Assembly: GCF_000719335.1 (NCBI RefSeq)
Contig: NZ_JOGB01000058.1
Span: 1 to 64,000 of the forward strand
Reading direction: 5' to 3'
Length of the DNA: 64,000 nt
Source: Streptomyces sp. NRRL S-87
GTDB taxonomy: Bacteria; Actinomycetota; Actinomycetes; Streptomycetales; Streptomycetaceae
Made by a program: the position numbers and the translations under genes. The notes under the pieces were generated by a model. That model did no database searches. It was given only the letters and a program-made list of their open reading frames with translations, and was not told where the DNA came from. Shown in pieces: positions 8,235 through 34,051 of the stretch; within the stretch, counting starts at the first letter, position 1; every line of letters begins with the position of its first letter.

Positions 8235-9221
8235 TCACGGTGCCACCGGCGCCCGGCCCGCGGCCGTGAAGCCGAGCAGCATGACGTAAGCGTCCGGGTC
8301 GGCGCGGAAGCGGTTCCAGCGGTCCGCCGCCAGGGCGAACTCCGGCAGCGTCACCACCCCGGAGGCCACCAGCGGCTGCAGCCGGCCGGGGCCCAGGTGC
8401 GGGGCGAAGGCCTCGGTCGGGTGGTCGTCGTTGGTGCTGGCGAAGGGGCGCAGCGCGACGTCCGCGCAGCCGGCGGCGCGCAGCATCCGCGTCAGGCGGC
8501 GGCCGAGGGTCCGGTCGCCGCCCGCCGAGGCCTGGGCCTGCGTCAGCTTGCCATGGATGCCGGCCAGTTCGGGGTACGAGGGTTCGGCCAGGCCCCAGCA
8601 GGAGGCGTCCACCTCGGTGGCGACGAGCAGCCCGCCGGGCCGCAGGACGCGCAGCGCCTCGGCCAGGACGGCCCGCGGGTCGGCGAGGTGCTGGAGCACG
8701 TAGCGCAGCAGGACGACGCCGGCCGAGGCGTCGGGCAGCGGCAGGGCGGCGCCGTCGGCGACCACCAGTTCGGCGCCGGCCCCGGCGGCGTGCGCGAGCA
8801 GGTCGCCGTCGATGTCGACCGCGGTGAGGGGGAGGGCGGGGAAGGCGGCGCGCAGGCGGCGGGTGACGGCGCCGGAACCGGCGCCGACCTCGACGAGCGG
8901 GCCGGACCCCTCGGTCACGCCGAGCTCGCGCAGGATGCGCAGTTCGGCGTCGAAGGACAGCGCGGCCTGCGCCTCCAGGCGGGCCAGCTCGCCCGCCAGG
9001 CCTCCGGCGGTGGTGGCGGCCGGGTCGTACGAGCCGCCGACCCGTCCCGCGCCGGGCGTGCCGACCCGTCCGGTGCCGGACGCGCCGACCGGTCCGCTGC
9101 TGGTGCTGGTGCTGGTGCTGGTGCTGGTGCTGGTGCCGGGGCCGGGGCCGGGGCCGGGGCCGGGGCCGGGGCCGGGGCGGGTGCCGGTGCCCTGGTCCGT
9201 GCGGGCGGGGGACGTGGTCAT
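8235..9221 (-). CDS. SAM-dependent methyltransferase with low-complexity N-terminus
   Basis: A 328-residue class I methyltransferase. Motif I LVEVGAGSGAVTRRL, motif II LTAVDIDGDLL, motif III LVVADGAALPLPDAS and motif IV VVLLRYVLQHLADP are all readable. The first 35 or so residues are simple repeats, a Gly-Pro run followed by a Ser-Thr run, encoded by hexanucleotide repeats. It overlaps the upstream P450 by ATGA (9218-9221), so the two are translationally coupled. Membership in the RiPP cluster suggests N- or O-methylation of the peptide; the site is unknown. The frame stays open far upstream through the P450 gene, but that reading is a shadow. Confidence 0.88.
   Translation of the reverse strand: MTTSPARTDQGTGTRPGPGPGPGPGPGPGTSTSTSTSTSTSSGPVGASGTGRVGTPGAGRVGGSYDPAATTAGGLAGELARLEAQAALSFDAELRILRELGVTEGSGPLVEVGAGSGAVTRRLRAAFPALPLTAVDIDGDLLAHAAGAGAELVVADGAALPLPDASAGVVLLRYVLQHLADPRAVLAEALRVLRPGGLLVATEVDASCWGLAEPSYPELAGIHGKLTQAQASAGGDRTLGRRLTRMLRAAGCADVALRPFASTNDDHPTEAFAPHLGPGRLQPLVASGVVTLPEFALAADRWNRFRADPDAYVMLLGFTAAGRAPVAP
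9096..9180. repeat. Hexanucleotide repeats inside the methyltransferase 5' end
   Basis: About six GTGCTG units followed by about seven GCCGGG units on the + strand, encoding Ser-Thr and Gly-Pro runs at the methyltransferase N-terminus. Being multiples of 6, length changes would keep the frame. They are likely variable between strains. Confidence 0.8.
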
Positions 9222-10555
9222 CGGTTCCTCGCAGTCATCCGCATGCCGTGCTTGGGGCGCAGGGTCACCAGGGCTTCCGGCTCCACCGTGAAGCCGGGTT
9301 CGAGTTCGAGCCGGGTCGCGCGCATCAGGACGGCCAGCACCAGCGTGGCCTCGACCATCGCGAGGTGCTGGCCGATGCAGATGCGCTCGCCGCCGCCGAA
9401 GGGCAGGTACAGGTGGTGGGGCGGGGCCCCGTCGGCGAACCGGTCGGGTACGTACTCCTCCGGGCGGTCCCAGTGGTCCGGGTGCCGGTGCAGCACCCAC
9501 TGGCTGACGCAGACCAGCGCGCCGGCCGGGATCTCGTAGCCGTCGATGACGTCGGGGCCCACGGCGCGCCGCGAGACCAGCCACACCGGCGGGTAGAGCC
9601 GCATGGCCTCCTCGATCGCGCGGCGGCAGTGCACCAGCTCTGGCAGGTCGGCGGCGGTGGGGGTGCGGTCCCCGAGGACACGGTCGATCTCCGCGCGGAC
9701 CCGGTCGGCCTCCGCCGGGTGCCGGTCCAGCAGGTACAGCGTCCACGTCAGGGCCTTGGCGGTGGTCTCGTGGCCCGCCATGACCAGGGTGAGCACCTGG
9801 TCGCGCAGCGCCTCGTCGTCCAGCTCGCCGATCATCGCGTCCAGCAGCGAGGGCGAGGCGTGCGCGGCCCCGCCGCCCGCGGCCCGCCGCGAGGCGATCA
9901 CCGTGCGGGCGATCAACTGCAGGAACGTACGGGCCTGTACGTACCCCTTGCGGCGCAGCGCCGTGTCGAGGGGATCCGGGTCCGGGTCGGGTACGTAGTG
10001 CCCCATGAAGCGGTTGGCCGCGTCCACGGCGCGGCCGAAGCCCTCGCCCGCCGCGCCCATGTCCACGCCGAGCACGGCGCGCGTGAGGATCGAGAGGGTC
10101 AGCGACGTGAGGTGGTGCTCGACGGGCAGCGGGGTGCCGGACTCCATGGCCGGGCGCCAGCGCTCGAGCAGGGCCTCGGTCTCCTCGGTGATGATGCCGT
10201 CGAAGGTGGTGACGGCGGTGCGCCGGAAGGCCGGGGCGCACAGCTTGCGCTGCCGGGCCCACTCGTCGCCGTTGCTGGTCAGCAGCCCGTTGCCGAGCAG
10301 CGGACGCAGCATCGCGTCGTCAGGGGTGTCGGCCTTGGTGTAGTTGGCGACGTTGTCCTTGAGCACGTGCCGGACCAGGTCGGGCCGGTGCAGCATGTAG
10401 ATCCGCTCGCCGTCGCCGACGTGGCTGGTGATGTCGCCGTGGCGGCGGTTCATCTCCGTCACGAACGCCAGCGGGTCGGCCCGCATCGCAGCCATGTCCA
10501 CGGGTGTGTCGGGCCCCGGTGGGACGGTGCCCGCCGGTGCGGTGGTGGGTGTCAC
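9218..10555 (-). CDS. Cytochrome P450 (tailoring monooxygenase 1)
   Basis: A 445-residue P450 with all hallmark motifs: I-helix AGHETTAKA, EAMR (ExxR), the PERF-like region VPDRFADG and heme loop FGGGERICIGQHLA with the Cys ligand. The YLPFGGGERICIG form resembles class VII/CYP4-like bacterial P450s rather than the usual Streptomyces CYP107 type. The GTG start at 10555 is chosen because GGAGG lies 5 bases before it. It overlaps the methyltransferase by 4 bases and is divergent from the RiPP precursor. It needs ferredoxin partners not seen here. Likely role: oxidation of the modified peptide. Confidence 0.92.
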   Translation of the reverse strand: MTPTTAPAGTVPPGPDTPVDMAAMRADPLAFVTEMNRRHGDITSHVGDGERIYMLHRPDLVRHVLKDNVANYTKADTPDDAMLRPLLGNGLLTSNGDEWARQRKLCAPAFRRTAVTTFDGIITEETEALLERWRPAMESGTPLPVEHHLTSLTLSILTRAVLGVDMGAAGEGFGRAVDAANRFMGHYVPDPDPDPLDTALRRKGYVQARTFLQLIARTVIASRRAAGGGAAHASPSLLDAMIGELDDEALRDQVLTLVMAGHETTAKALTWTLYLLDRHPAEADRVRAEIDRVLGDRTPTAADLPELVHCRRAIEEAMRLYPPVWLVSRRAVGPDVIDGYEIPAGALVCVSQWVLHRHPDHWDRPEEYVPDRFADGAPPHHLYLPFGGGERICIGQHLAMVEATLVLAVLMRATRLELEPGFTVEPEALVTLRPKHGMRMTARNR

Positions 10556-10632
10556 GTGAACCTCCGTGGATGGCTGGATCTTGGCCGGATTCCCAGTGGC
10601 TGAATCCGCATTACGTACGCCCCCTACGCAAG

Positions 10633-10667
10633 GGCCGGTGCGTATGCGCGGCGCATACGTACCGGCC
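10633..10667. promoter_or_regulatory. 35-bp near-perfect palindrome (candidate operator)
   Basis: Two 17-base arms around a single G (10650), with one G-T mismatch (10640/10660). The inner core is GTATGCGC-G-GCGCATAC. It is placed 78 bp before the P450 start and about 360 bp before the precursor. It could be an operator for a dimeric regulator or an RNA hairpin in the P450 leader. Confidence 0.7.
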
Positions 10668-10846
10668 GTCGGTAATTCCGTAATCCCCGTCGGAATTCCG
10701 GTGTGCGCGGTCCGGGCACGCGCCGGGCGGCGTCCGGCGTGAGAGCATGCTTGCGCGGGTGGGGGCAACCGGCCTGCGGGCGCGGGTGGTTGGGCAACGA
10801 TATCCGCGGGAGGGAATCGGCTCAATGCTTAGTCCGAGCGGCTCGA

Positions 10847-10897
10847 TACTCACTCCCGGCCGGCCCGTTACTCACTCCGGATCGGCCCGTTACTCAC
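10847..10897 (+). promoter_or_regulatory. Three TACTCAC direct repeats at 22-bp spacing
   Basis: TACTCAC occurs at 10847-10853, 10869-10875 and 10891-10897. The second and third lie in a longer common unit, CGGCCCGTTACTCAC. A 22-bp spacing places the copies on the same DNA face. SARP regulators bind heptamer direct repeats at 11- or 22-bp intervals, so this is a good candidate activator site for the precursor promoter. Confidence 0.65.
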
Positions 10898-11024
10898 GAT
10901 CCGGCGGCCCGCGGATTACGTTCCTTTACGTCTTGGCGGCACGCTTCCGGCCATGTGAATCTTTTCCTCGTCGCCGGCACAACGACCGAATCGAATCCGC
11001 AGGAATCGCGAAAGGAGAGTTCAC

Positions 11025-11393
11025 ATGGCACTCGACCCGCAGCAGCGCGCAGAGTTCGTGAACGCCTACACCCGTGTGCTCATCAGCTCCTGGTCCGACG
11101 AGGCGTTCGCCGCCAAGCTCCGCTCGGAGCCGCGCACGGCCCTCGCCGAGTCCGGCATCGAGCTCCCCGCCGACGCCCAGGTCGTCATCGTGACCGAGGC
11201 GCCCGAGGGCCACGAGGAGGGCAACCTGGACGTCCAGGTCAACCTCTGGGAGCAGGGCCTGGCCACCGGCCGCTACGAGTTCCACATCCCGGCCAGCCCG
11301 ACGGTCGACGCCGCCGAGCTGAGCGAGGGCGACCTGTCCGACGTCGCCGCCGGCTGCAACTACTGCTGCTGCCCCTGCTGCTGCTGCACCTGA
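11025..11393 (+). CDS. NHLP-leader RiPP precursor with Cys-rich core
   Basis: A 122-residue precursor peptide. Residues 1 to about 75 resemble the nitrile hydratase alpha-subunit fold used as a leader (RAEFVNAYTRVL, FAAKLRSEPRTALAESG, IELPADAQVVIV). The leader ends in ELSEGDLSDVAAG, a double-Gly-like cleavage site. The core is CNYCCCPCCCCT (residues 111-122): eight Cys, one Tyr, one Asn, one Pro, one Thr and no Ser. With cleavage after Gly110, Cys1 stays as the N-terminus, so up to seven thiazol(in)es and one methyloxazol(in)e are possible. Azole-forming genes (23787, 26123) and NHLM-type export genes (27625-33711) are in the same cluster. The start has a strong AAAGGAG site. It is the only precursor seen in the window. 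Confidence 0.93.
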   Translation: MALDPQQRAEFVNAYTRVLISSWSDEAFAAKLRSEPRTALAESGIELPADAQVVIVTEAPEGHEEGNLDVQVNLWEQGLATGRYEFHIPASPTVDAAELSEGDLSDVAAGCNYCCCPCCCCT

Positions 11394-11433
11394 TCGGCGC
11401 CCCGCAAACATTCCCACTTCGCTGGAGCGTTCC

Positions 11434-12381
11434 ATGCCCACTGCGCAGACGGCGCATCCGGTTTCCGTCCGCGGACTTTCCAAGCACTACGGTGACGTGC
11501 GGGCCGTGCGCGACATAAGCCTCGATATCCATCAGGGCGAGGTGTTCGCACTGCTCGGGCCGAACGGCGCGGGAAAGACCACGACCGTCGACATTCTGAC
11601 GGGCGTGCAGCGGCGCACCGGTGGAGATGTGCGGGTCCTCGGCCAAGACCCGGCCGAGGACCCGCGGGAATGGCGGGCGAGAATAGGCGTCGTACCCCAG
11701 ACGACCGGCGCCTACGCGGACCTCACCGTGAAGGAGGTCGTCAGGCATTTCGCCGCGATGTACCCGGCCCCGCTGCCGGTCGGCGAAGTGCTGGACATGG
11801 TGGGCCTCGGGGCCCTCCACAACCGGCAGGCCACGGCCCTCTCCGGCGGCCAGCAGCGCCGCCTGGACGTCGCGGTCGGCGTGATCGGCGATCCCGAGCT
11901 GATCTTCCTGGACGAGCCGACCACGGGCCTGGACCCGGTGGCGCGGCGCGAGGCCTGGGAGCTGGTCCGCTACTTCGCCGACCGCGGCCGCACGACCGTA
12001 CTGACCACCCACTACCTCGACGAGGCCGAGGAACTGGCCCAGCGCGCCGGTGTCGTCATCGGCGGCCGGCTCGTCGAGTGCGGCCCCCTGGAGTCCCTCG
12101 GCGGCCGCGACCGCACCCCGGCCACCATCACGTTCCGCCGCTGCGAGGCCCTCGCGGACCGCGCCCTGCCACCGCTGCCCCCGGGCACCGAGGTCGTGCC
12201 GGCCGGGACGGCCACCGTCACGCTGCGCACCGCCGCGCCGTCGGGGGCCCTGGAGGTCCTGCTGCCGTGGGCGCGCGAGGCGGGCGCGCCCGAGCTCGCC
12301 GAGCTGCGCGTGCACCGGCCCACCCTCGAAGACATCTACCTGCACCTGATCGACAGGGAGAACAGGGAGACCGCCGCATGA
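11434..12381 (+). CDS. ABC transporter ATP-binding protein (DrrA-like)
   Basis: A 315-residue ATPase with Walker A GPNGAGKTTT, Q-loop VVPQTTGAY, signature LSGGQQRRL, Walker B LIFLDEPTTGLDP and switch His TTHYLDEAEEL. The domain plan and the long C-terminal part match DrrA/NodI-type drug exporters. It starts 40 bases after the precursor stop and overlaps the permease by ATGA. With the permease it forms an ABC-2 exporter separate from the NHLM system, so immunity to the product or a second export step is likely. Confidence 0.93.
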   Translation: MPTAQTAHPVSVRGLSKHYGDVRAVRDISLDIHQGEVFALLGPNGAGKTTTVDILTGVQRRTGGDVRVLGQDPAEDPREWRARIGVVPQTTGAYADLTVKEVVRHFAAMYPAPLPVGEVLDMVGLGALHNRQATALSGGQQRRLDVAVGVIGDPELIFLDEPTTGLDPVARREAWELVRYFADRGRTTVLTTHYLDEAEELAQRAGVVIGGRLVECGPLESLGGRDRTPATITFRRCEALADRALPPLPPGTEVVPAGTATVTLRTAAPSGALEVLLPWAREAGAPELAELRVHRPTLEDIYLHLIDRENRETAA

Positions 12382-13274
12382 CCGTGACCGACGCCGTAGA
12401 GCCGGTGAAGCCGGCGGACCTCCGGCCGGCCGGAACCGCTCCCGCCATCGTGGTCGTGCGGCCCCCCGCGCGCGGCGCCCGGGCGCTGCTGCGCGCCTGC
12501 GCGGCGCGCTCGTCCGTCGAGCTGCGCGCGTTCTTCCGCAACAAGCAGTCGCTCGTCTTCACCCTCTTCTTCCCGGTGATCCTGCTCGTCGTCTTCGGCT
12601 CGATCTTCGAGGGCAAGGTCGAGGGCACGAACGTCGACTTCCGCCAGGTCTTCATGGCCGGCGTGATCGCGGCCGGTGTCATGAGCACCGCGTTCTCGGG
12701 CCTGGCCATCAACGTGGCCATCGAGCGCGACACCGGCACGGTCCGCCGTCTGGCGCTGACCCCGATGCCCAAGTCCGCGTACTTCGTGGGCAAGCTGGTC
12801 CGCGTCGTGGTCACCACCGTCCTCGAGACGGTGCTGCTCATCGGCATCGCCGTGGCCGCCTTCGACCTGCAGCTGCCGGCCACCGCGCAGCGCTGGAGCA
12901 CGCTGGGCTGGTGCCTCGCGCTGGGTACGGCGGCCTGCGCGCTCGCCGGGACCGCGTACAGCGCCGTGATCCCCAACAGCCGGTCCGCCGCCGCGGTGGT
13001 GACCCCGGTCTTCATGGTCCTGCAGTTCATCTCCGGCGTCTTCTACCCCTTCGACAAGCTGCCGCTGTGGATGCAGAACACCGCCGCCCTGTTCCCCGTC
13101 AAGTGGATGGCGCAGGGCTTCCGCTCGGTGTTCCTGCCGGACTCCTTCACGGCGGTGGAGCCGGCCGGCTCCTGGGAACTGGGGCGCATCGCGCTGGTGC
13201 TCGCGGCCTGGGCCGTGGGCGGCCTGCTGGCCACGATGCTCACGTTCGGCTGGCGCGGACCGCGGGTGCGCTGA
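12378..13274 (+). CDS. ABC-2 type permease (DrrB-like)
   Basis: A 298-residue membrane protein with about six hydrophobic segments (for example LVFTLFFPVILLVVFGSIF and ALGTAACALAGTAYSAVI) and the ABC-2 pattern FRNKQSLVFT near the N-terminus. VMVLQFISGVFYPF is typical of the DrrB family. The ATG overlaps the stop of the ATPase gene (ATGA), so the two are coupled. It partners the protein encoded at 11434-12381. Confidence 0.92.
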   Translation: MTVTDAVEPVKPADLRPAGTAPAIVVVRPPARGARALLRACAARSSVELRAFFRNKQSLVFTLFFPVILLVVFGSIFEGKVEGTNVDFRQVFMAGVIAAGVMSTAFSGLAINVAIERDTGTVRRLALTPMPKSAYFVGKLVRVVVTTVLETVLLIGIAVAAFDLQLPATAQRWSTLGWCLALGTAACALAGTAYSAVIPNSRSAAAVVTPVFMVLQFISGVFYPFDKLPLWMQNTAALFPVKWMAQGFRSVFLPDSFTAVEPAGSWELGRIALVLAAWAVGGLLATMLTFGWRGPRVR

Positions 13275-13336
13275 GACCCCGCGCGCGGGTGGAGACCGCG
13301 CGCGGAGGACCGCGCGCCGACAAGGAGAACGCCTAC

Positions 13337-15938: not shown

Positions 15939-15942
15939 CGAG

Positions 15943-16881
15943 ATGAACGTGCACTCGGGGTGGTACCTGGCCGCCTTCGCGTCCGAACTGGACGGCGAGG
16001 TGGTCCCGTTGGACATCGGCACGCGGCGGCTGGTGGCCGTGCGCGGCGCGGACGGGGAGCTGCGGGCGTACGACGCGGACTGCCCGCACCGGGGCGCGCA
16101 CCTCGGCCACGGCGGCCGCGTGGAGCGCGGCTGCCTGGTCTGCCCGTTCCACGGCCGGCGCATCGGGCTCGGGGAGCCCGCGGGGGAGGGCAGCCGGCCC
16201 TGGGTGCGCGAGCACGAGGTGGTCGTGTGCGGCGACGCGGTGTTCGTGCGGCTGACCGACGGACCCGAGGACGACCGCGGCATGCGGGCGCTGCTCAAGG
16301 AGCTGTCCGCGACCAAGCCGCTGGTCAAGGCCGTGGAGCAGCCGGTCGCCGCGGCCGCGGACCTGATCGTGGAGAACGCCTTCGACACGGACCACTTCAC
16401 CGCGCTGCACAAGGTCCACCGGGTGCGCGGGATGCACCACCGTGCGGGCGCGCACGGCGAGCTGGTGATGGACGGCGAGTTCCCGATGCCGGCCTCGCCG
16501 TGGCGCGGCAAGGCCGCGGGGCAGGGGCAGGCCGCCGCGCCGTCGTACGTACCCCGCTTCCACGCCCGCGCGTTCAGCCCGGCCGTCGTGGTCACCGAGT
16601 TCGGGCCGAGCAGCGAGGTGCACGTCATCGTCACCGGCGCGGTGCCCGACGGGCGCGGCGGCTGCGTCGCGCGCGTCGCGGTGGGCGTGGGCGAGGGGCG
16701 CGAGGACCAGCTGCCGATGCTGATCGCCGGCAGCCGGCGGGCGCTGGCCGAGGACGTCGTCGTCTGGGAGCACCTCAACCCCCGCGTGACGCCCCGCTAC
16801 GACGCCGCCGACGCGGCCGTGGTCGCGTACCGGGAGTTCTGCGCGGGCTTCACCGAGCTCGACCCGCGGGAGGCGTCGTGA
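15943..16881 (+). CDS. Rieske [2Fe-2S] non-heme iron oxygenase
   Basis: A 312-residue protein. The N-terminal Rieske domain has CPHRGAHLG and CLVCPFHGRR, which give the Cys-X-His and Cys-XX-His ligands. A C-terminal catalytic domain has the non-heme iron motif AFDTDHFTALHKVH. This is the plan of aromatic-ring and aliphatic Rieske oxygenases, similar to those tailoring natural products. It starts 4 bases after the amine oxidase gene and overlaps the hydrolase gene by GTGA. A reductase partner is not encoded nearby. Likely reaction: hydroxylation, desaturation or oxidative cyclisation of the RiPP. Confidence 0.92.
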   Translation: MNVHSGWYLAAFASELDGEVVPLDIGTRRLVAVRGADGELRAYDADCPHRGAHLGHGGRVERGCLVCPFHGRRIGLGEPAGEGSRPWVREHEVVVCGDAVFVRLTDGPEDDRGMRALLKELSATKPLVKAVEQPVAAAADLIVENAFDTDHFTALHKVHRVRGMHHRAGAHGELVMDGEFPMPASPWRGKAAGQGQAAAPSYVPRFHARAFSPAVVVTEFGPSSEVHVIVTGAVPDGRGGCVARVAVGVGEGREDQLPMLIAGSRRALAEDVVVWEHLNPRVTPRYDAADAAVVAYREFCAGFTELDPREAS

Positions 16882-17750: not shown

Positions 17751-17787
17751 AGTGATCAACCTAAGCAAAACGGGGGGCTGGGGGGAC

Positions 17788-18774
17788 ATGCCGGTATTCG
17801 CGCTCGAGTTCTTTGGGGCGATCCTCCAAGTGATGGGGGTGGTGGAGCAGGCGGACCTGTCGTTCTTCTTCGGACCACACCTCTTGGAGGAAGGTGCCGG
17901 ACTCGAACGGGCGGCACTCGTCGTGCATTTCGCCCAGCGGGCCGGTTCGGGGGCCACCGGAAACGAGGTGCGGGTCGTCGACGGCGAAGGCCGACTGCTG
18001 CGCCGACTGCCCTACCACGGCATCGGCGGCATCCCGCCGGTGCTGCCGCCCTTCGCGGCCATGAACCAGCGCTACGCCGTCGTCCAGGCCGCCGTACTGA
18101 CCCGCAAGGACAGCGTCGTCGCGCTCGTCGGCGGTATCGGCTCGCCCCGCAACTCGGTGGCCCTCGCCCTCGGCGGGCGGGGCTGGCGCATGGTCTCCGC
18201 CCAGTACCTGGTCGTCGACCGCGTCACCGGCCACACCCTGCCCTTCCAGCTGCCGCTCGCGCTGCGCGGCCCCGCCCTGGAGACCGCCCGCGCAGCCGGC
18301 CTCGTCGACGGCGCGCCGGACGTGCGCTCCGCCCGGTCGCCGCTGACCGGTGACTTCGTCCGGGTGCGCCCCGAGCGGCTGATCGAGACCGTGGGCATCG
18401 GGGAGCGGTTGGGCCCGGCCACGCTGGTGCGGCTGTGCACCACCGGCGGCCAGCGGTGCCACCTGGAGGAGCGGGACTTCGCCCTCTCGGTGTGGCCGCC
18501 CGACGCCGGCGCCGATCCCGCGTTCGCCGTCGCCCCGCGACTGCGCCTGCTGCTGCCCGAGTCCGGCGGGGCCGAGGAGGCCGCCGACCTGCTCGACGAC
18601 CGACTGACCGTGCTCGCGAAGGGAGCCGTGCCGTGCCCCGCCGTACCGCCTACACCGAGGGAACACCCTGCTGGGTCGACCACGTGGGAGTCGACCCCAC
18701 CGGTGCCAAGGACTTCTACGCTGCTCTCTTCGGCTGGGAGTTCCGACGCGAGGGCGGCCGCGGCTACCACCTGA
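17788..18774 (+). CDS. Unknown protein, possible degenerate HprK-like kinase fold
   Basis: A 328-residue protein starting MPVFALEFFG behind a G-rich ribosome binding site. The central part, VVALVGGIGSPRNSVALALGGRGWRMVSAQYLVVD, looks like the P-loop and following helix of HPr-kinase-like proteins, but the P-loop Lys is absent (GSPRNS instead of GSGKS). Such proteins occur in lasso and other RiPP clusters. I do not recognise the N-terminal 90 residues. The last 47 residues run out of frame through the start of the VOC gene, giving a 142-bp overlap; that tail is low-complexity and may be non-functional. The function is unknown. Confidence 0.65.
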   Translation: MPVFALEFFGAILQVMGVVEQADLSFFFGPHLLEEGAGLERAALVVHFAQRAGSGATGNEVRVVDGEGRLLRRLPYHGIGGIPPVLPPFAAMNQRYAVVQAAVLTRKDSVVALVGGIGSPRNSVALALGGRGWRMVSAQYLVVDRVTGHTLPFQLPLALRGPALETARAAGLVDGAPDVRSARSPLTGDFVRVRPERLIETVGIGERLGPATLVRLCTTGGQRCHLEERDFALSVWPPDAGADPAFAVAPRLRLLLPESGGAEEAADLLDDRLTVLAKGAVPCPAVPPTPREHPAGSTTWESTPPVPRTSTLLSSAGSSDARAAAATT

Positions 18775-19292
18775 TCCTGCTCGGCGGCGAGATCGTCGGG
18801 GGCCTCGGGCCGAGCCCGGCGGGCCCCCGGTTCGGCTCGGCGTGGAGCGTGTACCTCGCGGCGAAGGACCTCGACGGGGCCGGCCGGCGGGCCGAGCAGC
18901 GCGGCGCCCGCCTCCTGGTCCGGGCCGTCCCGGCCGGCGGGAACGGCCGGCTCAGCCTCGCCGTCGACCCGGTCGGCGCCCCCTTCGGGCTCTGGCAGGG
19001 CGCCCACGACGAGGGCGTGGTCCTCGTCGACGAGCCCGGCGCCCTGACCGGCGCCACCCTGCAGACCCCCCGTCCGGAGGAGTCGGCCGCGTTCTACCAC
19101 GGGGTGAGCGGTACGCACCCGGCGACCGAGCGGGCGGACGCACCGCGCTGGGTGCCGAGCTTCGGGGTGGCCGACGTCGGCGCCTTCGAGGACCTCGCCC
19201 GGGCCGCGGGCGCCCGGAGCCCGGCGCCCGGCCTCCTCGCCGACCCCTGGGGCGCGGTGTTCGCCGTGACGGAGCTCCCCGCCGCCGGTTAA
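18633..19292 (+). CDS. VOC (glyoxalase/bleomycin-resistance fold) protein
   Basis: A 219-residue, two-domain VOC protein. TPCWVDHVGVDPTGAKDFYAALFGWEF opens the first beta-alpha-beta-beta-beta module, and TPRPEESAAFYHGVSG opens the second. The GTG start at 18633 fits the family start and has GGGAG 7 bases upstream, so it truly overlaps the upstream gene by 142 bp. Members are metalloenzymes or drug-binding resistance proteins. In this cluster it may sequester the peptide for immunity or catalyse a tailoring step. Confidence 0.85.
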   Translation: MPRRTAYTEGTPCWVDHVGVDPTGAKDFYAALFGWEFRREGGRGYHLILLGGEIVGGLGPSPAGPRFGSAWSVYLAAKDLDGAGRRAEQRGARLLVRAVPAGGNGRLSLAVDPVGAPFGLWQGAHDEGVVLVDEPGALTGATLQTPRPEESAAFYHGVSGTHPATERADAPRWVPSFGVADVGAFEDLARAAGARSPAPGLLADPWGAVFAVTELPAAG

Positions 19293-19472: not shown

Positions 19473-20879
19473 ATGGCATCCGAGATCGTGGTCATGGGCG
19501 GCGGGCCGGCAGGCTCCATCGCCGCGGCGCTGCTGGCCCGGCAGGGCGCGCGCGTGAAACTGCTGGAGCGCGCGCATTTCCCCCGCTACCACATCGGGGA
19601 ATCCGTGGCGACCTCCTGCCGGTCCATCATCGAACTGGCCGGCGCCCTCGACAAGGTGGCCGAGCGCGGCTACATGGTCAAGGAGGGCCTCCTGCTGCGC
19701 TGGGGCGCCGAGCGCGACTGGGTGGTGGACTGGCCCGAGATCTTCGGCACCACCGCCCAGACCTCCTGGCAGGTCGACCGCGCGGACTTCGACGAGGTCC
19801 TGCTGCGGCACGCCGCCTCCCAGGGCGTCGAGGTCATCGAGGGCGCCCAGGCCCGCAAGGTGCTCTTCGAGGACGGCCGCGCCGCGGGCGTGGAGTGGAC
19901 CCACGAGGGTCAGGAGCACACCACCCGCGCCGACCACGTCATCGACGCCACCGGCCGCGCCGGCCTGATCTCCGTGCGCCACCTCGGCAACCGCACCCCG
20001 CATGACGTGTTCCGCAACGTCGCGGTCTGGGGCTACTACAAGGGCGGCGAGCTGCTGCCCCGCACCCCCAAGGGCGGGATCAACGTCATCTCCGCGCCCG
20101 AGGGCTGGTACTGGGTCATCCCGCTGGCGGACGACGTGTACAGCGTCGGCTTCGTGACCCACCAGGACCACTTCCTCAAGCGCAAGCAGCGGTACGCGGA
20201 CGTGGAGTCCCTGTTCCTCGACGCGGTGCAGGAGTCGGAGACCGTACGGGACCTGGTGGCGCACGGCGAGTTCCAGCACGACGTCCGGGTCGAGCAGGAC
20301 TTCTCGTACACGGCGGAGAGCTTCTGCGGGCCCGGCTACTTCCTCGCCGGCGACTCCGCCTGCTTCCTCGACCCGCTGCTGTCGACCGGCGTCCACCTCG
20401 CCATGTACAGCGGGATGCTGGCGGCAGCCTCCATCCTCGCGCAGGACGCGGGCGAGGTGACCGAGGAGGAGGCGCTCTCCTTCTACGAGTCGCTCTACCG
20501 CAACGCGTACGCCCGCATGTTCTCGATGGTGGCCGGCTTCTACGAGCAGTACCGCGGCAAGGCCACGTACTTCTGGCTCGCCCAGCGGCTCGCCCGGGGC
20601 CGCCACCCGGAGCTGATGAACCAGCGCCCCGCCCCCGAGCCGATGCGCTCCGCGCCCGACAGCGAGGCCTTCGCCGCGCTCACGGCCGGTGTCCTCGACC
20701 TCGACGACGCGGCGCGGGCGGGCGGCGCGACGCCGCTGCCCCAGGACGTGCTCGCCGCACGGATGTCCCGGCAGCACGACCTCGACAGCCACGACGCGGC
20801 CACCGGGCTGTTCCTGAAGACCACTCCGCAGCTGGGCATCGGCCGGGCCGGCCGGGCCGCGGAGACGGCGCACGCCTGA
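19473..20879 (+). CDS. FAD-dependent halogenase (phenol type)
   Basis: A 468-residue flavin-dependent halogenase. GGGPAGSIAAALLARQG (FAD), HFPRYHIGES, the halogenase WxWxI motif as W212-Y-W214-V-I216, and GDSACFLDPLLSTGVHLA are all present. The Lys in MVKEGLLLRWG (Lys70) matches the catalytic-Lys pattern KxGxxxxWG of halogenases acting on phenols and carrier-bound pyrroles, as opposed to tryptophan. In the RiPP cluster, the only phenol in the core is Tyr3, so chlorination of that residue is the simplest hypothesis. A flavin reductase is not in the window. The start is chosen by the AAAGG site and by the family N-terminus. Confidence 0.9.
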   Translation: MASEIVVMGGGPAGSIAAALLARQGARVKLLERAHFPRYHIGESVATSCRSIIELAGALDKVAERGYMVKEGLLLRWGAERDWVVDWPEIFGTTAQTSWQVDRADFDEVLLRHAASQGVEVIEGAQARKVLFEDGRAAGVEWTHEGQEHTTRADHVIDATGRAGLISVRHLGNRTPHDVFRNVAVWGYYKGGELLPRTPKGGINVISAPEGWYWVIPLADDVYSVGFVTHQDHFLKRKQRYADVESLFLDAVQESETVRDLVAHGEFQHDVRVEQDFSYTAESFCGPGYFLAGDSACFLDPLLSTGVHLAMYSGMLAAASILAQDAGEVTEEEALSFYESLYRNAYARMFSMVAGFYEQYRGKATYFWLAQRLARGRHPELMNQRPAPEPMRSAPDSEAFAALTAGVLDLDDAARAGGATPLPQDVLAARMSRQHDLDSHDAATGLFLKTTPQLGIGRAGRAAETAHA

Positions 20880-20902
20880 GCCCCCGAGGGCGGTGCGCAC
20901 GG

Positions 20903-20930: not shown

Positions 20931-20995
20931 GACCGGATCGGGGGGTGTCGGCGTACGTCCCCCCAGGGAGAGCGGAGCATCCGGACCCCATGCGG

Positions 20996-26039: not shown

Positions 26040-26063
26040 AAGCGCCCACCACCCGTCCGACCC

Positions 26064-26099
26064 GCGGGCCAGGGCTTGCACGCACGCGCCCTGGCCCGC
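26064..26099 (+). other. Strong intercistronic hairpin between cyclodehydratase and dehydrogenase
   Basis: GCGGGCCAGGGC (26064-26075) pairs perfectly with GCCCTGGCCCGC (26088-26099) over a 12-base loop, in the 83-bp gap. No T-run follows on the + strand. It may be a leaky terminator or an mRNA processing/stability element that changes the ratio of cyclodehydratase to downstream proteins. Confidence 0.6.
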
Positions 26100-26122
26100 G
26101 CCCCTACCCCAGGGCTGGAGCC

Positions 26123-27601: not shown

Positions 27602-27624
27602 CGGAAGGAAGAGGGGGAAACACC

Positions 27625-28437
27625 GTGAAGTTCCGCTACCAGGCCCTGCAGCGCAAGCGCGAGCCCGACGAGCTCGACGCCGCCGTGATGCTCGCGGCAC
27701 CACGCGGCTGGATCGCCGTCTTCGTCGTCCTCATCGTCATGGCGGGCGCCGTCGGCTGGGCCCTGGTGGCCCGGCTCGACGTCACCGTCGACGCGCCGGG
27801 CGTGCTCACCCACCCCGGCGGCACCAGCCAGGTGCAGAGCCCGTACACCGGCATGGCCAAGGAGCTGCTGGTGCGCCCCGCCGAGGAGGTCAAGGCCGGC
27901 CAGGCCATCGCCCGCCTCACCGACCCGGCCGGACAGGTCCGCACGATCACCAGTCCGTTCACCGGCAAGGTCATCAGCGCCCCGCTCAACACCGGCCAGT
28001 ACGTCCGCACCGGCGCCACCGTCGCCACCGTCGAACGCACCGACCTGCCCGAGGACCGCCTCGTGGCCCTGGTGTTCGTACCGGCCGAACGGGCGGCCCG
28101 GCTGGTGCCCGGCCGGCCCGTCGACCTGTCGGTCTCCACCGCGCCCCCGGCCGCCTTCGGCCTGCTGCGCGGCCGGGTCACCAGCGTCGACCCGTACCCG
28201 CTCACCCGCGAGGCCCTCGCCGCCATCGTCGGCGGCGACCTGGCGGTCGACAACTTCGACCACGGCCAGGCCCCGCGCCTCGTCACCGTCGACCTGATCC
28301 CCGACGCGGACTCCGCCTCCGGCTACGCCTGGAGCTCCGCCAACACCCCGCCGGTCCGGCTCGGCTCGCAGACCACCGTGTCCGCCTCGATCGAACTGCG
28401 CAACCAGTCGCCCTTCGACCTGGTGCTGGGGCGCTGA
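27625..28437 (+). CDS. HlyD-family membrane fusion protein of the NHLM export system
   Basis: A 270-residue protein. A short cytoplasmic N-terminus is followed by one transmembrane helix (WIAVFVVLIVMAGAVGWALV, about residues 32-51). The biotinyl-lipoyl-like half-motifs around VTVDAPGVLTHPGGTSQVQSPYTG and TSPFTGKVISAPLNTGQYV are those of HlyD adaptors. The GTG start at 27625 is preceded by a long purine-rich site. It should link to the ABC proteins encoded just downstream, though in a Gram-positive cell there is no outer membrane to reach; NHLM systems in actinobacteria carry the same adaptor. Confidence 0.87.
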   Translation: MKFRYQALQRKREPDELDAAVMLAAPRGWIAVFVVLIVMAGAVGWALVARLDVTVDAPGVLTHPGGTSQVQSPYTGMAKELLVRPAEEVKAGQAIARLTDPAGQVRTITSPFTGKVISAPLNTGQYVRTGATVATVERTDLPEDRLVALVFVPAERAARLVPGRPVDLSVSTAPPAAFGLLRGRVTSVDPYPLTREALAAIVGGDLAVDNFDHGQAPRLVTVDLIPDADSASGYAWSSANTPPVRLGSQTTVSASIELRNQSPFDLVLGR

Positions 28438-28441
28438 GCCC

Positions 28442-30730
28442 ATGAGCGACACGAAGACCCGGCCCGCCGGGACGACCTCCCGCCGCGAGGCCCGCCGCCG
28501 CAAGCGGGGCGCCGCCCGCACCCGCCGCTGGGCCCGCCGGCGCGCCCACCGCGTGCCCACCGTCCTCCAGATGGAGTCGGTGGAGTGCGGAGCCGCCAGC
28601 CTGTCGATGATCCTCGCCCACTACGGCCGGCACGTCCCGCTGGAGGAGCTGCGCGCCCTGTGCGGCGTCTCCCGCGACGGCGCCAAGGCCAGCTCCGTGC
28701 TGGCCGCCGCCCGCTCCTTCGGGATGGTCGCCCGCGGCTTCCAGGCCGAGACCGACCAGCTCGCCGAGAAGCTCCGGACCGGCCCGGTCATCATCTTCTG
28801 GGCCTTCCAGCACTTCATGGTCGTCGAGGGCATCACCACCCGCTTCGGCCGCACCCAGGTCGCCGTCAACGACCCGGCCGCCGGCCCCCGCCTGATGGAG
28901 TGGTCCGAGTTCGACTCCGGCTACACCGGCATCGTCCTCACCTTCGAACCCGGCCCCGACTTCACCCGCGGCGGCCGCCGCAGCTCCACCGCGGCGGCGC
29001 TCATCGACCGCCGCCTGCCCTCCGGGCGGGCCCTGCCGCTGGTGCTGCTGGCCAGCCTGCTCCTGGTCGTGCCCGGCATCGTCGGCGCCGCGTACTCCCG
29101 GGTCTTCGTCGACCGGGTGCTCACCTCGGACTCGCCCACGGCCGTGCTCCCGCTGGCCGCCGCGATGGCCGTCACCGCCCTGATGGTCTTCGTCCTGACC
29201 TCCGTGCAGCAGCACTACCTGCTGCGCATGGAGATCCGCACCGGCCTGGTGGCCTCCGCACGGTTCTTCCGGCACCTGCTGCGGCTGCCCATCGAGTTCT
29301 TCCTGCAACGCCGCCCGGCCGAGGTGGCCAAACGCGTGGCGAGCAACGACACCGTCGCGATGATCCTCTCCCGCGACGTCGCCGCCACCACCATCAACCT
29401 CGTCCTGGTCGTCTTCTACGGCGGCCTGATGATCCGCTACGACGTCCTGCTCGGCGTCCTCGGCCTGTCCACCGCCGCGCTCAACGTCCTGGTCCTGCAA
29501 CTCGTCGCCCGCTCCCGCAAGGACGCCGTCGACGCGCTGCGCGCCGACCGCGGCAACCTCGTCGGCACCACCTTCGCCACCCTCTCCACCATCGAGTCCG
29601 TCAAGGCCACCGGCGCCGAGCCCGACGCCTTCACCCGCTGGGCCGGCTTCCTCGCCAAGGTCACCACCGCGCAGCAGCGCCTCGGCCAGACCACGGCGGT
29701 CCTGACCGTGCTGCCGCCCCTGCTGGCCGTGGTCAACATCGGCGTCCTGCTGCTCGTCGGCGGCCTGCGGGTGGCCGACGGCGCGCTGAGCATCGGCATC
29801 CTGGTCACCTTCCAGACCCTGCTCGCCGCCCTCAGCCGCCCGGTCACCCAGCTCACCAACCTGGGCAGCCGCCTGCAGGACATGAACGCCGACCTCAAGC
29901 GCATCCACGACGTCGAGAAGTACCCGCAGGCCCGCTGCTTCGAGCCCGGCCGCGAGCGCCCGGACGACGACGCCCCGGTGGGCCGGCTCGGCGGCGAACT
30001 CGCCCTGCGTGACGTGACGTTCGGCTACGGCCCGCTGGCCGACCCGGTCGTCACCGGCCTCACCCTCACCGTCAGCCCCGGCTCGCGCACCGCGATCGTC
30101 GGCGGCTCCGGCAGCGGCAAGTCCACCGTCGGCCGCCTCGTGACCGGCCTGTACGAACCGCGCTCGGGCCAGGTCCTGATCAGCGGCCGGCCCCGTGACG
30201 AGGTGCCCCGCACCGTCCTGGCGGCCTCCATGGCGTACGTCGACCAGGACGTGGCCCTGTTCGCCGGCACCGTGCGCGACAACCTGACCCTGTGGGACGA
30301 CACCGTCCCCGACGAGGTCGTCCTCGCCGCCCTCCAGGACGCCGCGGTCTTCGACGAGGTCATGTCCCGCCCCGGCGGTCTCAACGCCCGCGTGTGGGAG
30401 CACGGCAGCAACTTCAGCGGCGGCCAGCGCCAGCGCCTGGAACTGGCCCGTGCGCTCGCGGCCCGCCCCACGCTGCTCGTCCTCGACGAGGCCACCAGCG
30501 CCCTCGACCCGGCCACCGAGCGCACCGTCATGGACAACCTGCGCCGCCGCGGCTGCGCCTGCCTGATCATCGCCCACCGGCTGTCCACCGTCCGCGACGC
30601 GGACGAGATCATCGTCCTCGACCGCGGCACGATCGCCGAACGCGGCAGCCACGACGAACTCCTCGCCGCCCAGGGCCCCTACGCCGCGCTGTTCGAGTCC
30701 AGCCGCTCCGAGGAGAAGGACACACTATGA
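28442..30730 (+). CDS. NHLM peptidase/permease/ATPase (C39 leader-cleaving ABC transporter)
   Basis: A 762-residue exporter. The N-terminal C39 peptidase domain has the catalytic Cys in QMESVECGAASL, the His in FQHFMVVEG and the Asp in VNDPAAG. It is followed by an ABC transmembrane domain of about six helices and an ATPase with Walker A GGSGSGKST, signature FSGGQRQRLE and Walker B LLVLDEATSALDP. The peptidase cuts double-Gly-type leaders, here after AAG of the precursor, during export. It overlaps the next gene by ATGA. It is a full-length member of the NHLM family that travels with NHLP precursors. Confidence 0.95.
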   Translation: MSDTKTRPAGTTSRREARRRKRGAARTRRWARRRAHRVPTVLQMESVECGAASLSMILAHYGRHVPLEELRALCGVSRDGAKASSVLAAARSFGMVARGFQAETDQLAEKLRTGPVIIFWAFQHFMVVEGITTRFGRTQVAVNDPAAGPRLMEWSEFDSGYTGIVLTFEPGPDFTRGGRRSSTAAALIDRRLPSGRALPLVLLASLLLVVPGIVGAAYSRVFVDRVLTSDSPTAVLPLAAAMAVTALMVFVLTSVQQHYLLRMEIRTGLVASARFFRHLLRLPIEFFLQRRPAEVAKRVASNDTVAMILSRDVAATTINLVLVVFYGGLMIRYDVLLGVLGLSTAALNVLVLQLVARSRKDAVDALRADRGNLVGTTFATLSTIESVKATGAEPDAFTRWAGFLAKVTTAQQRLGQTTAVLTVLPPLLAVVNIGVLLLVGGLRVADGALSIGILVTFQTLLAALSRPVTQLTNLGSRLQDMNADLKRIHDVEKYPQARCFEPGRERPDDDAPVGRLGGELALRDVTFGYGPLADPVVTGLTLTVSPGSRTAIVGGSGSGKSTVGRLVTGLYEPRSGQVLISGRPRDEVPRTVLAASMAYVDQDVALFAGTVRDNLTLWDDTVPDEVVLAALQDAAVFDEVMSRPGGLNARVWEHGSNFSGGQRQRLELARALAARPTLLVLDEATSALDPATERTVMDNLRRRGCACLIIAHRLSTVRDADEIIVLDRGTIAERGSHDELLAAQGPYAALFESSRSEEKDTL

Positions 30731-33711
30731 CGACGCCCCTCGCCGCGGCCGCGCCGGCGCGGACCGTGTGCCTCGACGACCCCGGGACCCTCCTGTACGT
30801 GGAGTCGGGTGCGGCCGACCTGTTCGCCGTGGACCGCGGCCCCGACGAGGCGGCCGACCCGGGCTGCGAGGTGGACGAGGGCCACGGCCGGCGCTACTTC
30901 CTGTGCCGGGCCGAGGCCGGGATGCTGCTGGTCTGCGGCACGGCGGACGACAGCCGGCACACCGTCGTCGCCCGCCCCGTCCTCGACGCCCGCCTCACCA
31001 CCCTGCCGCTGTCCCTGCTCGACGAGGTCCGGCAGGGCCGGGCCACCCTGCCCCAGCCCGCCACCGGCGGCGCCGGAATCGACCACGCCCGCGTCCTCGA
31101 CGGCCTGACCGCCGGGCTCACCGCCCTCGCCGAGGCACTGCCCGGCGCCCTGCCGCCCCGCCAGTTCACCTCCCTGGCCACCACCGGCAGCACGGAGCTC
31201 GACGCCGGCGGCGTCGCCCGTTCCGTCGACGGCGTGCGCTTCGTGCGCGTGGAGTCCGGCCTGCTGGAGCAGGGCGACCCGGCCACCGAGGGCGCCGCCC
31301 CCGGCGCCGACGCGGACGCGGGCACGGGCGCACTGGCCCCGGTCGGGCCCGGCGCCGAGCTGGTCCTCACCGAAGGGGACTGGCTGCGCGCCCGGGAGAC
31401 CTCCCGGCTGGCCACCGCCTCCCTCCTGGACCTCTACCGGCAGGGCCGGCTGACCGCCGCGCTCACCGAGCACGCGGCCCGGCTGCGCGCCACCGTCGAC
31501 CACCGCATCGCCCACCACCGGGCCCGCGAGCGCGCGGAGCTGGCGGCCCGCCGGGACCAGGACGGCAAGGTCCTCGCCCTGGCCGTCCGCAGCTTCGACG
31601 CGGTCCTGCACGACACCGGCACCCGGGTGCGGCTCGCCGACGTGGCGGCCGACCCGCCGCTGCTCGCCGCGGTGCGGCTGGTCGCCTCCCGCCAGGGCTT
31701 CTCCGTCCGTCCGCCGGTCCGCGGCCGGGGCCGCGGCCGGGTCGTGGACGACCTGCGGGCCATCGCCCTGGCCTCCGGCTTCCGCACCCGCGGCATCCGG
31801 CTGGAGGGCCGCTGGTGGACCAGCGACCTCGGTCCGCTCCTCGGCTACCACGTCACTGGCCGGCCGGTCGCGGTGCTGCCGCTCGGCCACGGGTACGTGA
31901 TGGTCGACGACGGCGAGGTCGTCCCGCTCACCTCCGAGACCGCGGCCCGGCTGCGGAACACGGCCGTGGCCCTGTACCGGCCGCTGCCCGACCGGGTGCG
32001 CGACGTCCGCGGCCTGCTGCGGTTCGGCTTCTCACCGTCCCTCGGGCACGGCCGGGACCTGGCCCGGTTCGCCGCCACCGGCGTGCTGGTCGCCCTGCTG
32101 GGGCTGATCATCCCGGTGATGACCGGCAAGGTGCTCGCCGAGTTCGTGGCCGACGCCGACCGCAACCTGATCGTGCAGGGCTCGCTCGTCGTCATCGGCT
32201 CCGGCCTGGTGACGGCCGCCCTGTCCGTCGTGCAGAACCTCGCGGTGCTCCGCCTGGAGAGCCGCTCGGGCGCCGCCATGCAGGCCGGCCTGTGGAACCG
32301 GCTGCTGTCCCTGCCCGCCGCGTTCTTCACCCGCTACTCCACCGGCGAGCTGGGCACCACCGTGCTCGGTGTCACCGCGGCCCAGGAGCTGCTCTCCGGC
32401 ATGCTCACCACGGCCACCCTCGCGCTGCTGACGGGCCTGGCCAACCTGGTGCTGGTCTTCTGCTACGACCTGACGCTGGCCTTCGTCGCCACCGGCCTGA
32501 CGGCCGTGGGCATCGGGTTCGCCGCGGTCGCCGGCCGGCTCCAACTGCGCTGGGCGAGGCGCGAGTACGTGCACGAACAGGCCATGTCCGCGATGGTCTT
32601 CCAGATGCTCACCGCCATGCCCAAGCTCCGGGTGGCGGCGGCCGAGGAGCGCGCGTTCGCCGAGTGGACCCGGCTGGCCGCCCGCGGCCACGGCCTGTCG
32701 GCGCGGGTGCGCCGGGTGCAGAACTCCGTGACCACCTTCAACGCCGGTTTCCCGCTGGTCTGTTCGGCCGTGGTGTTCGCGGTGACGGCGGGGCCGCTGC
32801 ACGGCGAGGTGCCGCTCGCCACGTTCCTGCCGTTCTTCGCGGCCTTCAACCTGCTGCTCTCGGCGGGCCTGCAGTTCACCGCCTCCGCCGTCACCGCGGT
32901 GGGCACCGTGCCCATGCTGGAGCGGCTCGCGCCGATCCTCGAGGCGGAGCCGGAGAACGACGGCACCAAGGTCGACCCCGGCGACCTGTCCGGCCGGATC
33001 AAGGTCTCGCACCTGTCGTTCCGGTACGGCCAGGACGGCCCGGTCGTCCTCGACGACATCAGCCTCACCGTGCACCCGGGAGAGTTCGTGGCCGTCGTCG
33101 GGGCCTCGGGCAGCGGCAAGTCCACCCTGCTGCGGCTGCTGCTGGGCTTCGAGTCCCCGCTGTCCGGCAGCGTCCTGTACGACGGCCAGGACCTGGCCGA
33201 GCTCGACGTCTCGGCGGTCCGCCGGCAGTGCGGCGTGGTGCTCCAGAACGGCGCGCTGCAGGCCGGCGACATCCTCGCCAACATCGTCGGCACCAGCGGC
33301 CACACCCTCGACGACGCGTGGGCGGCGGCCGAGATGACCGGCCTGGCCGACGACATCCGGGCCATGCCGATGGGCATGAACACCGTCCTGTCGGAGGGCA
33401 CCAACACCCTCTCCGGCGGCCAGCGCCAGCGCCTGATGATCGCGCGGGCCCTGGTGGCCCGGCCCCGCATGGTCTTCTTCGACGAGGCGACCAGCGCCCT
33501 CGACAACCCCACGCAGGGCCTGGTCGCCGAGAGCACCCGGCGGCTGAACGCCACCCGGATCGTCATCGCGCACCGGCTGTCCACCGTCGTGGACGCCGAC
33601 CGCATCGTCGTCATGGACCGCGGCCGGATCGTCCAGCAGGGCACGTACGAGGAACTGATCGCGGACGCCGACGGCGTCTTCGCACGTCTGGCGGGCCCTC
33701 AGATGTCCTGA
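30727..33711 (+). CDS. NHLM family ABC transporter, second component
   Basis: A 994-residue protein. The N-terminal about 430 residues have an unusual soluble region, including PGTLLYVESGAADLFAV, that resembles the cNMP-binding-like part of NHLM partners. An ABC membrane domain follows from about residue 440, and a C-terminal ATPase has Walker A GASGSGKST, signature LSGGQRQRL and Walker B MVFFDEATSALDN. No peptidase domain is present. ATGA overlap with the C39 transporter shows coupling, so the two probably form a heterodimer. It is the last large gene of the RiPP export operon. Confidence 0.92.
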   Translation: MTTPLAAAAPARTVCLDDPGTLLYVESGAADLFAVDRGPDEAADPGCEVDEGHGRRYFLCRAEAGMLLVCGTADDSRHTVVARPVLDARLTTLPLSLLDEVRQGRATLPQPATGGAGIDHARVLDGLTAGLTALAEALPGALPPRQFTSLATTGSTELDAGGVARSVDGVRFVRVESGLLEQGDPATEGAAPGADADAGTGALAPVGPGAELVLTEGDWLRARETSRLATASLLDLYRQGRLTAALTEHAARLRATVDHRIAHHRARERAELAARRDQDGKVLALAVRSFDAVLHDTGTRVRLADVAADPPLLAAVRLVASRQGFSVRPPVRGRGRGRVVDDLRAIALASGFRTRGIRLEGRWWTSDLGPLLGYHVTGRPVAVLPLGHGYVMVDDGEVVPLTSETAARLRNTAVALYRPLPDRVRDVRGLLRFGFSPSLGHGRDLARFAATGVLVALLGLIIPVMTGKVLAEFVADADRNLIVQGSLVVIGSGLVTAALSVVQNLAVLRLESRSGAAMQAGLWNRLLSLPAAFFTRYSTGELGTTVLGVTAAQELLSGMLTTATLALLTGLANLVLVFCYDLTLAFVATGLTAVGIGFAAVAGRLQLRWARREYVHEQAMSAMVFQMLTAMPKLRVAAAEERAFAEWTRLAARGHGLSARVRRVQNSVTTFNAGFPLVCSAVVFAVTAGPLHGEVPLATFLPFFAAFNLLLSAGLQFTASAVTAVGTVPMLERLAPILEAEPENDGTKVDPGDLSGRIKVSHLSFRYGQDGPVVLDDISLTVHPGEFVAVVGASGSGKSTLLRLLLGFESPLSGSVLYDGQDLAELDVSAVRRQCGVVLQNGALQAGDILANIVGTSGHTLDDAWAAAEMTGLADDIRAMPMGMNTVLSEGTNTLSGGQRQRLMIARALVARPRMVFFDEATSALDNPTQGLVAESTRRLNATRIVIAHRLSTVVDADRIVVMDRGRIVQQGTYEELIADADGVFARLAGPQMS

Positions 33712-33862
33712 CCGACAAGGCAGTCGGTGACGTCCGCAATCCGGCGTACCGTACCTCGAGGCCGGTTGCGGATGAGATGATCCGACCGGACCTCACATGT
33801 CCACCCCCCGTGCCCACGGCGCTCCGACCGGCGCCGGGCACCTCACGAAGAGCAGGGAAACC

Positions 33863-34051
33863 ATGTCGCAGGCTCCCAAGTCCGCCCTCTCCAACCTCAA
33901 CGTCGTGCTGCCCATGGTGTACGCGGCGGCCATCGTCGTCTCCGCCGCCTTCGGGAACGGCAAGGTGACCGGCGTGGTCGCCGCGGCCGGGGGCATCCTG
34001 CTCGGCGCGTTCTACGCCTTCCGCGGCCGCAACCGCGACTCCGGCGTCTGA
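33863..34051 (+). CDS. Small two-helix membrane protein at the right end of the RiPP cluster
   Basis: A 62-residue protein. Hydrophobic segments are VVLPMVYAAAIVVSAAF and VTGVVAAAGGILLGAFYAF, with a basic end RGRNRDSGV. The start at 33863 has AGCAGGGA nearby. It lies 151 bp after the second NHLM gene on the same strand. It mirrors the 61-residue protein at 7881-8066 in size and topology, but not clearly in sequence. An immunity or accessory role is speculative. Confidence 0.6.
   Translation: MSQAPKSALSNLNVVLPMVYAAAIVVSAAFGNGKVTGVVAAAGGILLGAFYAFRGRNRDSGV

Follow-up and report, generated by a model that had tools for sequence, protein, structure and literature searches.

A gene cassette in the 64,000-nucleotide stretch of DNA analyzed here (hereafter the window; part of contig C58 of a Streptomyces genome of 8.15 Mb, G000) probably directs the synthesis of a polythiazolyl peptide. 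The cassette, at window positions 7881–33711, is conserved beyond chance co-occurrence, and our best reading of it is a polythiazolyl hybrid between a linear azole-containing peptide (LAP) and a proteusin, with finishing steps that differ by lineage. An initial annotation of the locus had proposed an oxidation-rich azole-containing ribosomally synthesized and post-translationally modified peptide (RiPP); it was largely right about the class but claimed too much for chlorination and for the lack of a described compound.

Precursor core and predicted azole formation

The precursor peptide has 122 residues, and the last 12, which follow the motif AAG, form the core CNYCCCPCCCCT with its eight Cys. 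A search of 5.8 billion proteins returned 91 relatives of this precursor, many of which carry the precomputed Pfam assignment PF27793. Core columns were counted in 90 of the 91, anchored on the Pro; P0091, whose last 12 residues lack a Pro, was dropped. The C-terminus of the core is near-invariant (CCCPCCCCT): the residue following Pro is Cys in 90 of 90 precursors, and the three preceding it are Cys in 87, 89, and 88 of the 90. The seven Cys columns (−3 to +4) contain another residue in 31 cells, and in 28 of these it is Ser or Thr; the rows are related, and the count therefore carries no probability. Besides Cys, YcaO enzymes can cyclize these two residues. Because the replacements are mostly to them, azole formation is favored over disulfides or metal ligands, and the substitution pattern supports heterocyclization. 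The spacer between AAG and the Cys block varies in length (e.g., VLDA, AASAEA), which suggests either trimming after cleavage by the C39 peptidase or a variable N-terminus.

The predicted azole-forming steps are well supported by the enzymes encoded nearby. A single open reading frame (ORF) holds matches to both TIGR03604 (cut-off 219) and TIGR03882 (cut-off 37) that exceed the cut-offs, and the SagB-type dehydrogenase likewise scores above that of its own family. The C-termini of the YcaO proteins read VFF in 35 of 36 loci (VFV in G350), with no Pro-rich tail. Together with the substitution pattern, these matches bear out the azole RiPP with a Cys-cluster core that had been proposed for the locus. 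Genome G000 holds two further YcaO genes, at C13:60170–61219 and C3:277097–278128.

The leader of the window precursor matches the NHLP model TIGR03793 at 39.7 bits (E = 3.3e-10), under the NCBI cut-off of 50.9; we therefore term it NHLP-type rather than a member of TIGR03793. Matches to the same model at E ≤ 0.001 were found for 41 of 42 precursor rows. A profile of the precursors also reaches nitrile hydratase alpha (4.5e-6) and the proteusin structure 8tb1 (4.3e-4), and a Foldseek search with an AlphaFold2 model of the precursor returned 8tb1 with a probability of 0.91 but an E value of 0.2, a weak match. On evidence that is weak but repeated, the leader looks NHLP-type, as had been claimed, and proteusin-like. 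Second precursor-like ORFs with divergent cores were noted at G403:C5:81489–82025 (CCSCCPSCCSASGSG) and G495:C1:912929–913405 (no Cys block).

Gene content and conservation of the cassette

Coding frames were picked by third-position GC and backed by family matches (Pfam and TIGRFAM/NCBI profiles). The leftward part of the cassette consists of the small protein SM61, a methyltransferase (MT), and the cytochrome P450a. The first rightward run holds the precursor, DrrA, DrrB, P450b, the amine oxidase, the Rieske oxygenase, the alpha/beta hydrolase, the HprK-like protein, the VOC protein, and the halogenase. The remainder is a leftward LuxR-type regulator followed by rightward genes for YcaO, SagB, HlyD, ABC1 with its C39 domain, and ABC2. 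Window coordinates, strands, and assignments are as follows.

7881–8066, minus: SM61, 61 residues, two hydrophobic stretches by eye; tblastn homologs in the fetched regions of 30 of 37 genomes, no Pfam match
8235–9221, minus: S-adenosylmethionine (SAM) methyltransferase (MT); Pfam Methyltransf_11, 69 bits, E = 4.5e-19; in 32 of 37 genomes
9218–10486, minus: P450a, with AGHETT I-helix and heme Cys motif; PF00067, 251 bits
11025–11393, plus: NHLP-type precursor, core after AAG CNYCCCPCCCCT; TIGR03793, 39.7 bits; 91 homologs
11434–12381, plus: DrrA-like ABC ATPase; TIGR01188, 218 bits (below the cut-off of 312)
12378–13274, plus: DrrB-like ABC-2 permease; PF01061, 91 bits
13337–14641, plus: P450b, heme Cys motif FGGGPHFC, I-helix GGWQPL; PF00067, 56 bits
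14634–15938, plus: flavin amine oxidase; PF01593 (Amino_oxidase), 142 bits; matches PDB amine oxidases
15943–16881, plus: Rieske non-heme oxygenase; PF00355, 54 bits
16878–17750, plus: alpha/beta hydrolase; PF12697 (Abhydrolase_6), 60 bits
17788–18774, plus: HPrK/PEPCK-fold (HprK-like) protein, no P-loop; HprK_rel_A, 28 bits (cut-off 200); 3' end overlaps the VOC frame
18633–19292, plus: VOC/glyoxalase-like protein, KbpA-related; PF18029, 30 bits; NF053614, 85 bits (below the cut-off of 250)
19473–20879, plus: FAD-dependent halogenase of CndH/RadH/CmlS type; PF04820 (Trp_halogenase), 131 bits
20996–23416, minus: LuxR-family regulator with AAA domain; GerE, 50 bits; AAA_16, 39 bits
23787–26039, plus: fused E1-like leader-binding domain and YcaO cyclodehydratase; TIGR03882, 143 bits; TIGR03604, 246 bits; PF02624, 320 bits
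26123–27601, plus: SagB-type azoline dehydrogenase; TIGR03605, 151 bits (above cut-off)
27625–28437, plus: HlyD-like NHLM adaptor; TIGR03794, 154.0 bits (cut-off 156.2)
28442–30730, plus: NHLM ABC1 with C39 peptidase, predicted leader removal and export; TIGR03796, 946 bits; PF03412, 113 bits
30727–33711, plus: NHLM ABC2; TIGR03797, 814 bits (above cut-off)
33863–34051, plus: 62-residue hydrophobic protein, boundary gene; relatives in 5 of 36, near ones only; no Pfam match

In the NHLM export system, both the C39-containing ABC1 and ABC2 exceed their profile cut-offs. Family scans recognized neither a LanB-type dehydratase nor a pyridine synthase among the called genes of 7881–34051. All genes named in the initial annotation, which had likewise seen no LanB-type dehydratase, are present at or inside 8235–34051; its list was correct and lacked SM61, the HprK-like protein, and the LuxR-type regulator.

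We compared the window with 36 other genomes in which tblastn found the precursor together with YcaO and SagB (37 in all). SagB is present in 37 of 37, and YcaO over most of its length in 36, the remaining one (G488) being cut by the edge of the fetched piece. The Rieske oxygenase, the hydrolase, and P450a, like MT, occur in 32 of the 37; P450b and SM61 are each found in 30, as is the amine oxidase, and 30 genomes carry P450b plus amine oxidase. By tblastn, about 30 of the 37 hold most of the gene set, and gene absences in G327, G350, G394, G783, G488, and G682 may reflect where the fetched piece or the contig stops. The set is kept together across lineages, while order and strand differ. Precursor and YcaO occur together in Streptomyces, Kitasatospora, Yinghuangia, and Streptosporangium records. 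In Nakamurella and Helcobacillus they are accompanied by a reduced or weakly matching gene set; P450b, the amine oxidase, Rieske, and MT of the Helcobacillus cluster (G405) match weakly, at 28 to 34% identity.

Partial versions of the cassette were also seen in the stretches fetched. G350 and G495 share with the window little beyond the precursor, YcaO, SagB, and exporters, and G327 and G360 have DrrAB and P450a (cut by the edge in G327) without the oxidation module (P450b, amine oxidase, Rieske, and hydrolase). In G880 the oxidation module is present, but SM61, P450a, and a clear DrrAB are missing; G783 is alike, its contig ending there. This distribution suggests that the cassette is built of two modules that can occur separately.

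The system is rare: within the class, the precursor profile matched 8 of 394 genomes, a figure that counts the own genome, and further draws, which overlap and count it too, gave 15 of 297 and 3 of 248. Precursor matches in G173, G038, and G897 (E 1e-14 to 1e-13) were left out of further comparison, and G941 repeats G404. At the genus level, 115 of 392 genomes have a YcaO relative at E ≤ 1e-60, mostly at about 40% identity; of 21 genomes screened, 18 had the precursor and G309, G181, and G302 were without it. The combination of genes is thus real and uncommon but not an isolated case.

Several features adjoin the cassette. To its left, window 13–4743 holds, by eye, the end of a gene like those for nonribosomal peptide synthetases (LGGHSLL motif) and a large regulator-like ORF, which probably belong to another pathway. 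A Kef-type-looking antiporter gene (6450–7730) lies beside the cassette in five near relatives at an identity of at least 65%, probably as genus-level synteny. Directly to the right, the product of 34131–35411 looks secreted and carries an HENGH stretch; it may be a metalloprotease, and tblastn gave no match for it in 26 regions. Further on, 49756–53452 encodes short proteins that look secreted and contain the repeat GSPGVLSGNLVQVPVHVP(I/V)N, presumably resembling chaplins.

Oxidation enzymes and candidate lineage-specific finishing

The many oxidative enzymes that had been listed for the locus (two P450s, flavin amine oxidase, Rieske, and halogenase) are all recognized by family matches, and most retain their diagnostic motifs across genomes. 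P450a has AGHETT and the heme Cys in 32 of 32 homologs. The usual I-helix acid-alcohol pair is absent from P450b in 30 of 30 homologs, with the heme Cys pattern kept in 28 (G785 and G880 were missed by the pattern). The Rieske protein has its ENAFDxxHxxxxH iron motif in 32 of 32 and the CPH...CPFH cluster motif in 31 (G785 missed by pattern); its best PDB match is dicamba O-demethylase (7.2e-6), and its homologs have generic names wherever a name appears. The pattern used for the catalytic residues of the hydrolase missed many relatives. Matches to MT mostly span about 80–95% of the query, and its low-complexity N-terminus may stem from a wrong start. The HprK-like protein lacks the P-loop in 14 of 14 aligned sequences though the HPr kinase fold matches; its profile gave no match against PDB sequences. 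The VOC protein resembles the AfsK-binding protein KbpA (NF053614, below cut-off), and its role may lie in regulation, not in catalysis or resistance.

By similarity and motifs, the halogenase groups with the phenol-type enzymes. It matches PDB 3e1t (CndH), 8zop, RadH, and CmlS at E values of 3e-60 to 1e-68; GxGxxG is present, and the GWYWVIP motif (GWxWxIP) and the Lys of GYxVKE, the catalytic residue of such enzymes, are kept in nine of nine. An in-cluster halogenase is found in 10 of the 37 genomes (that of G394 lies on the precursor's contig, outside the fetched piece), and on a YcaO tree of 36 rows the label needs two changes. All nine cores of the form C-x-Y have an in-cluster halogenase, a pairing that by itself hints at Tyr as the target; these nine form one clade of the tree, and the pairings therefore count as about one event. 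In G932, a halogenase gene lies about 0.4 kb behind the VOC gene, and the core, DINCCCCPCCCCT, has no Tyr. The core Tyr is for this reason a doubtful chlorination target: either the enzyme acts on something other than Tyr, or its use in G932 differs. Halogenase relatives also occur outside the cluster in several genomes, e.g., G388 (53%), G401 (59%), and G495 (54%), and G785 has a 64% identical one on another contig. A halogenase gene is present here, as had been noted, but with 10 of 37 clusters having one and the Tyr-free core of G932, the claim of a chlorinated product, a prediction for some lineages only, was too strong.

Other clusters encode other candidate finishing enzymes. A NodU-type carbamoyltransferase is found in the regions of 8 of the 37 genomes (Kitasatospora xanthocidica, K. 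aureofaciens, Yinghuangia, and five others, mostly Streptomyces); that of G400 matches PF16861 at 188 bits, and none of the eight carriers has an in-cluster halogenase. G327, G360, and G403 encode a KedN5-type B12 radical SAM protein, and a weaker match lies in G520; the G360 protein scores 311 bits, below the cut-off of 700.

Proposed pathway, alternatives, and known systems

By homology, biosynthesis would begin with binding of the folded NHLP-type leader by the E1-like part (RiPP recognition element, RRE) of the fused cyclodehydratase. The YcaO domain would convert the core Cys of CNYCCCPCCCCT (as many as seven, should the first remain uncyclized) into thiazolines, which SagB would then oxidize to thiazoles, giving two oligothiazole blocks that flank the invariant Pro. 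The calculated mass of the unmodified core is 1317.29 Da; seven thiazoles would lower it to 1177.11 Da, by 20.03 Da for each ring. P450b, the amine oxidase, Rieske, and the hydrolase may form a shared module acting on a part of the core common to the lineages rather than on a lineage-specific residue, with further tailoring by P450a and MT. Lineage-specific enzymes, here the halogenase, would then finish the product, and the C39-containing ABC1 would cleave behind AAG and export it with HlyD and ABC2. We infer the order and targets of the tailoring steps from enzyme families and gene distribution. DrrAB probably serves export or self-resistance, and an antibiotic or antifungal is expected rather than a signal.

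A broader proposal, which we advance tentatively as somewhat short of an even chance, is that these loci form an undescribed RiPP family spanning several actinobacterial families. Its near-invariant pharmacophore, a polythiazole made from two Cys blocks around Pro, would be remodeled by enzymes apparently new to azole RiPPs (Rieske, flavin amine oxidase, and a P450 without the acid-alcohol pair) and capped interchangeably by chlorination, carbamoylation, or B12 radical SAM methylation. If true, the lineages would amount to a natural experiment, with one polythiazole receiving three kinds of finishing chemistry, and the cassette would supply oxidative enzymes predicted to act on a ribosomally made azole peptide. 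Cores of RiPPs commonly vary, and one kept nearly letter for letter across actinobacteria points to a single strict target or function.

The product could instead be saramycetin, an antifungal thiazolyl peptide that dates from the 1960s, or a close analogue, leaving the product class known and only the genes new; we regard this as a real possibility, if a rather doubtful one. Saramycetin hydrolysates reportedly contain thiazole acids along with Asp, Gly, Thr, Pro, and cystine, a composition that cores like GNSCCCPCCCCT could explain, and a structural study from around 2022 is said to call it a sulfur-rich RiPP. One source describes it as a Streptomyces thiazolyl peptide and antifungal, called a thiopeptide, incompletely characterized, and perhaps outside the thiopeptide family (PMC3917276). 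Against this identity, none of the record names shown for precursor or Rieske homologs mentions saramycetin (many are unnamed, and names are shortened). Neither the core CCCPCCCC nor this enzyme set, with YcaO, Rieske, and P450 combined in a RiPP context, was found in the literature searched, which excluded most subscription papers; titles listed for oligothiazole compounds were not relevant, and no matching cluster appeared among further listed titles and abstract openings. The initial remark that no described product was known does not extend to the claim that none exists, with saramycetin as a candidate. Karamomycin (Nonomuraea thiazoles) was considered and dropped, being tied to a nonribosomal metallophore pathway (PMC12971057).

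Eight Cys at near-invariant spacing in a 12-residue core would also fit a peptide that retains many free or partly cyclized Cys and acts as a metal-binding peptide or metallophore. This is improbable given that the loci carry YcaO plus SagB, that Cys is replaced by Ser or Thr rather than by other ligands, and that no metal-uptake gene was recognized among the called genes of the span. More improbable again is that two adjacent pathways, one for a plain NHLP azole peptide (YcaO through ABC2) and an unrelated oxidative one (P450b through halogenase), have been mistaken for one. The regulator gene does separate the halves, and G350, G495, G327, and G360 lack the oxidation module in the stretches fetched; yet the precursor here sits beside DrrAB and P450b, not YcaO, and both halves occur in the fetched stretches of 29 of the 37 genomes and, split over two contigs, in G394, despite changing order and strand.

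Among known systems, the polythiazolyl LAP/proteusin reading has close parallels in azole proteusins. Nostatin A from Nostoc and the MprE/MprC/MprD system share with this locus the NHLP leader feeding a YcaO enzyme, the dehydrogenase, and core azoles, which are predicted here (PMC11583998; PMC12455567). Nostatin differs in its 30-residue core with dehydroamino acids, its LanM-like enzyme, and its epimerase (PMC11583998), whereas the present locus has a 12-residue Cys block, no dehydratase seen, and predicted tailoring by P450s, Rieske, amine oxidase, and halogenase. Thiopeptides and YM-216391/telomestatin-type peptides share P450s and, by prediction, many azoles with it; in contrast to these, the locus has an NHLP-type leader and NHLM exporters, and neither LanB nor pyridine synthase among its called genes. 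The window YcaO is 38–39% identical to YcaO proteins encoded by Nostoc and Gloeothece plasmids and annotated as thiazole/oxazole-modified microcin (TOMM) precursor leader peptide-binding protein. The NHLP/Nif11 TOMM group of Cox et al. (2015) likewise pairs NHLP precursors with YcaO; in that survey its cores are described as hypervariable and its precursors were not identified (PMC4603692), whereas the core of this locus is nearly invariant.

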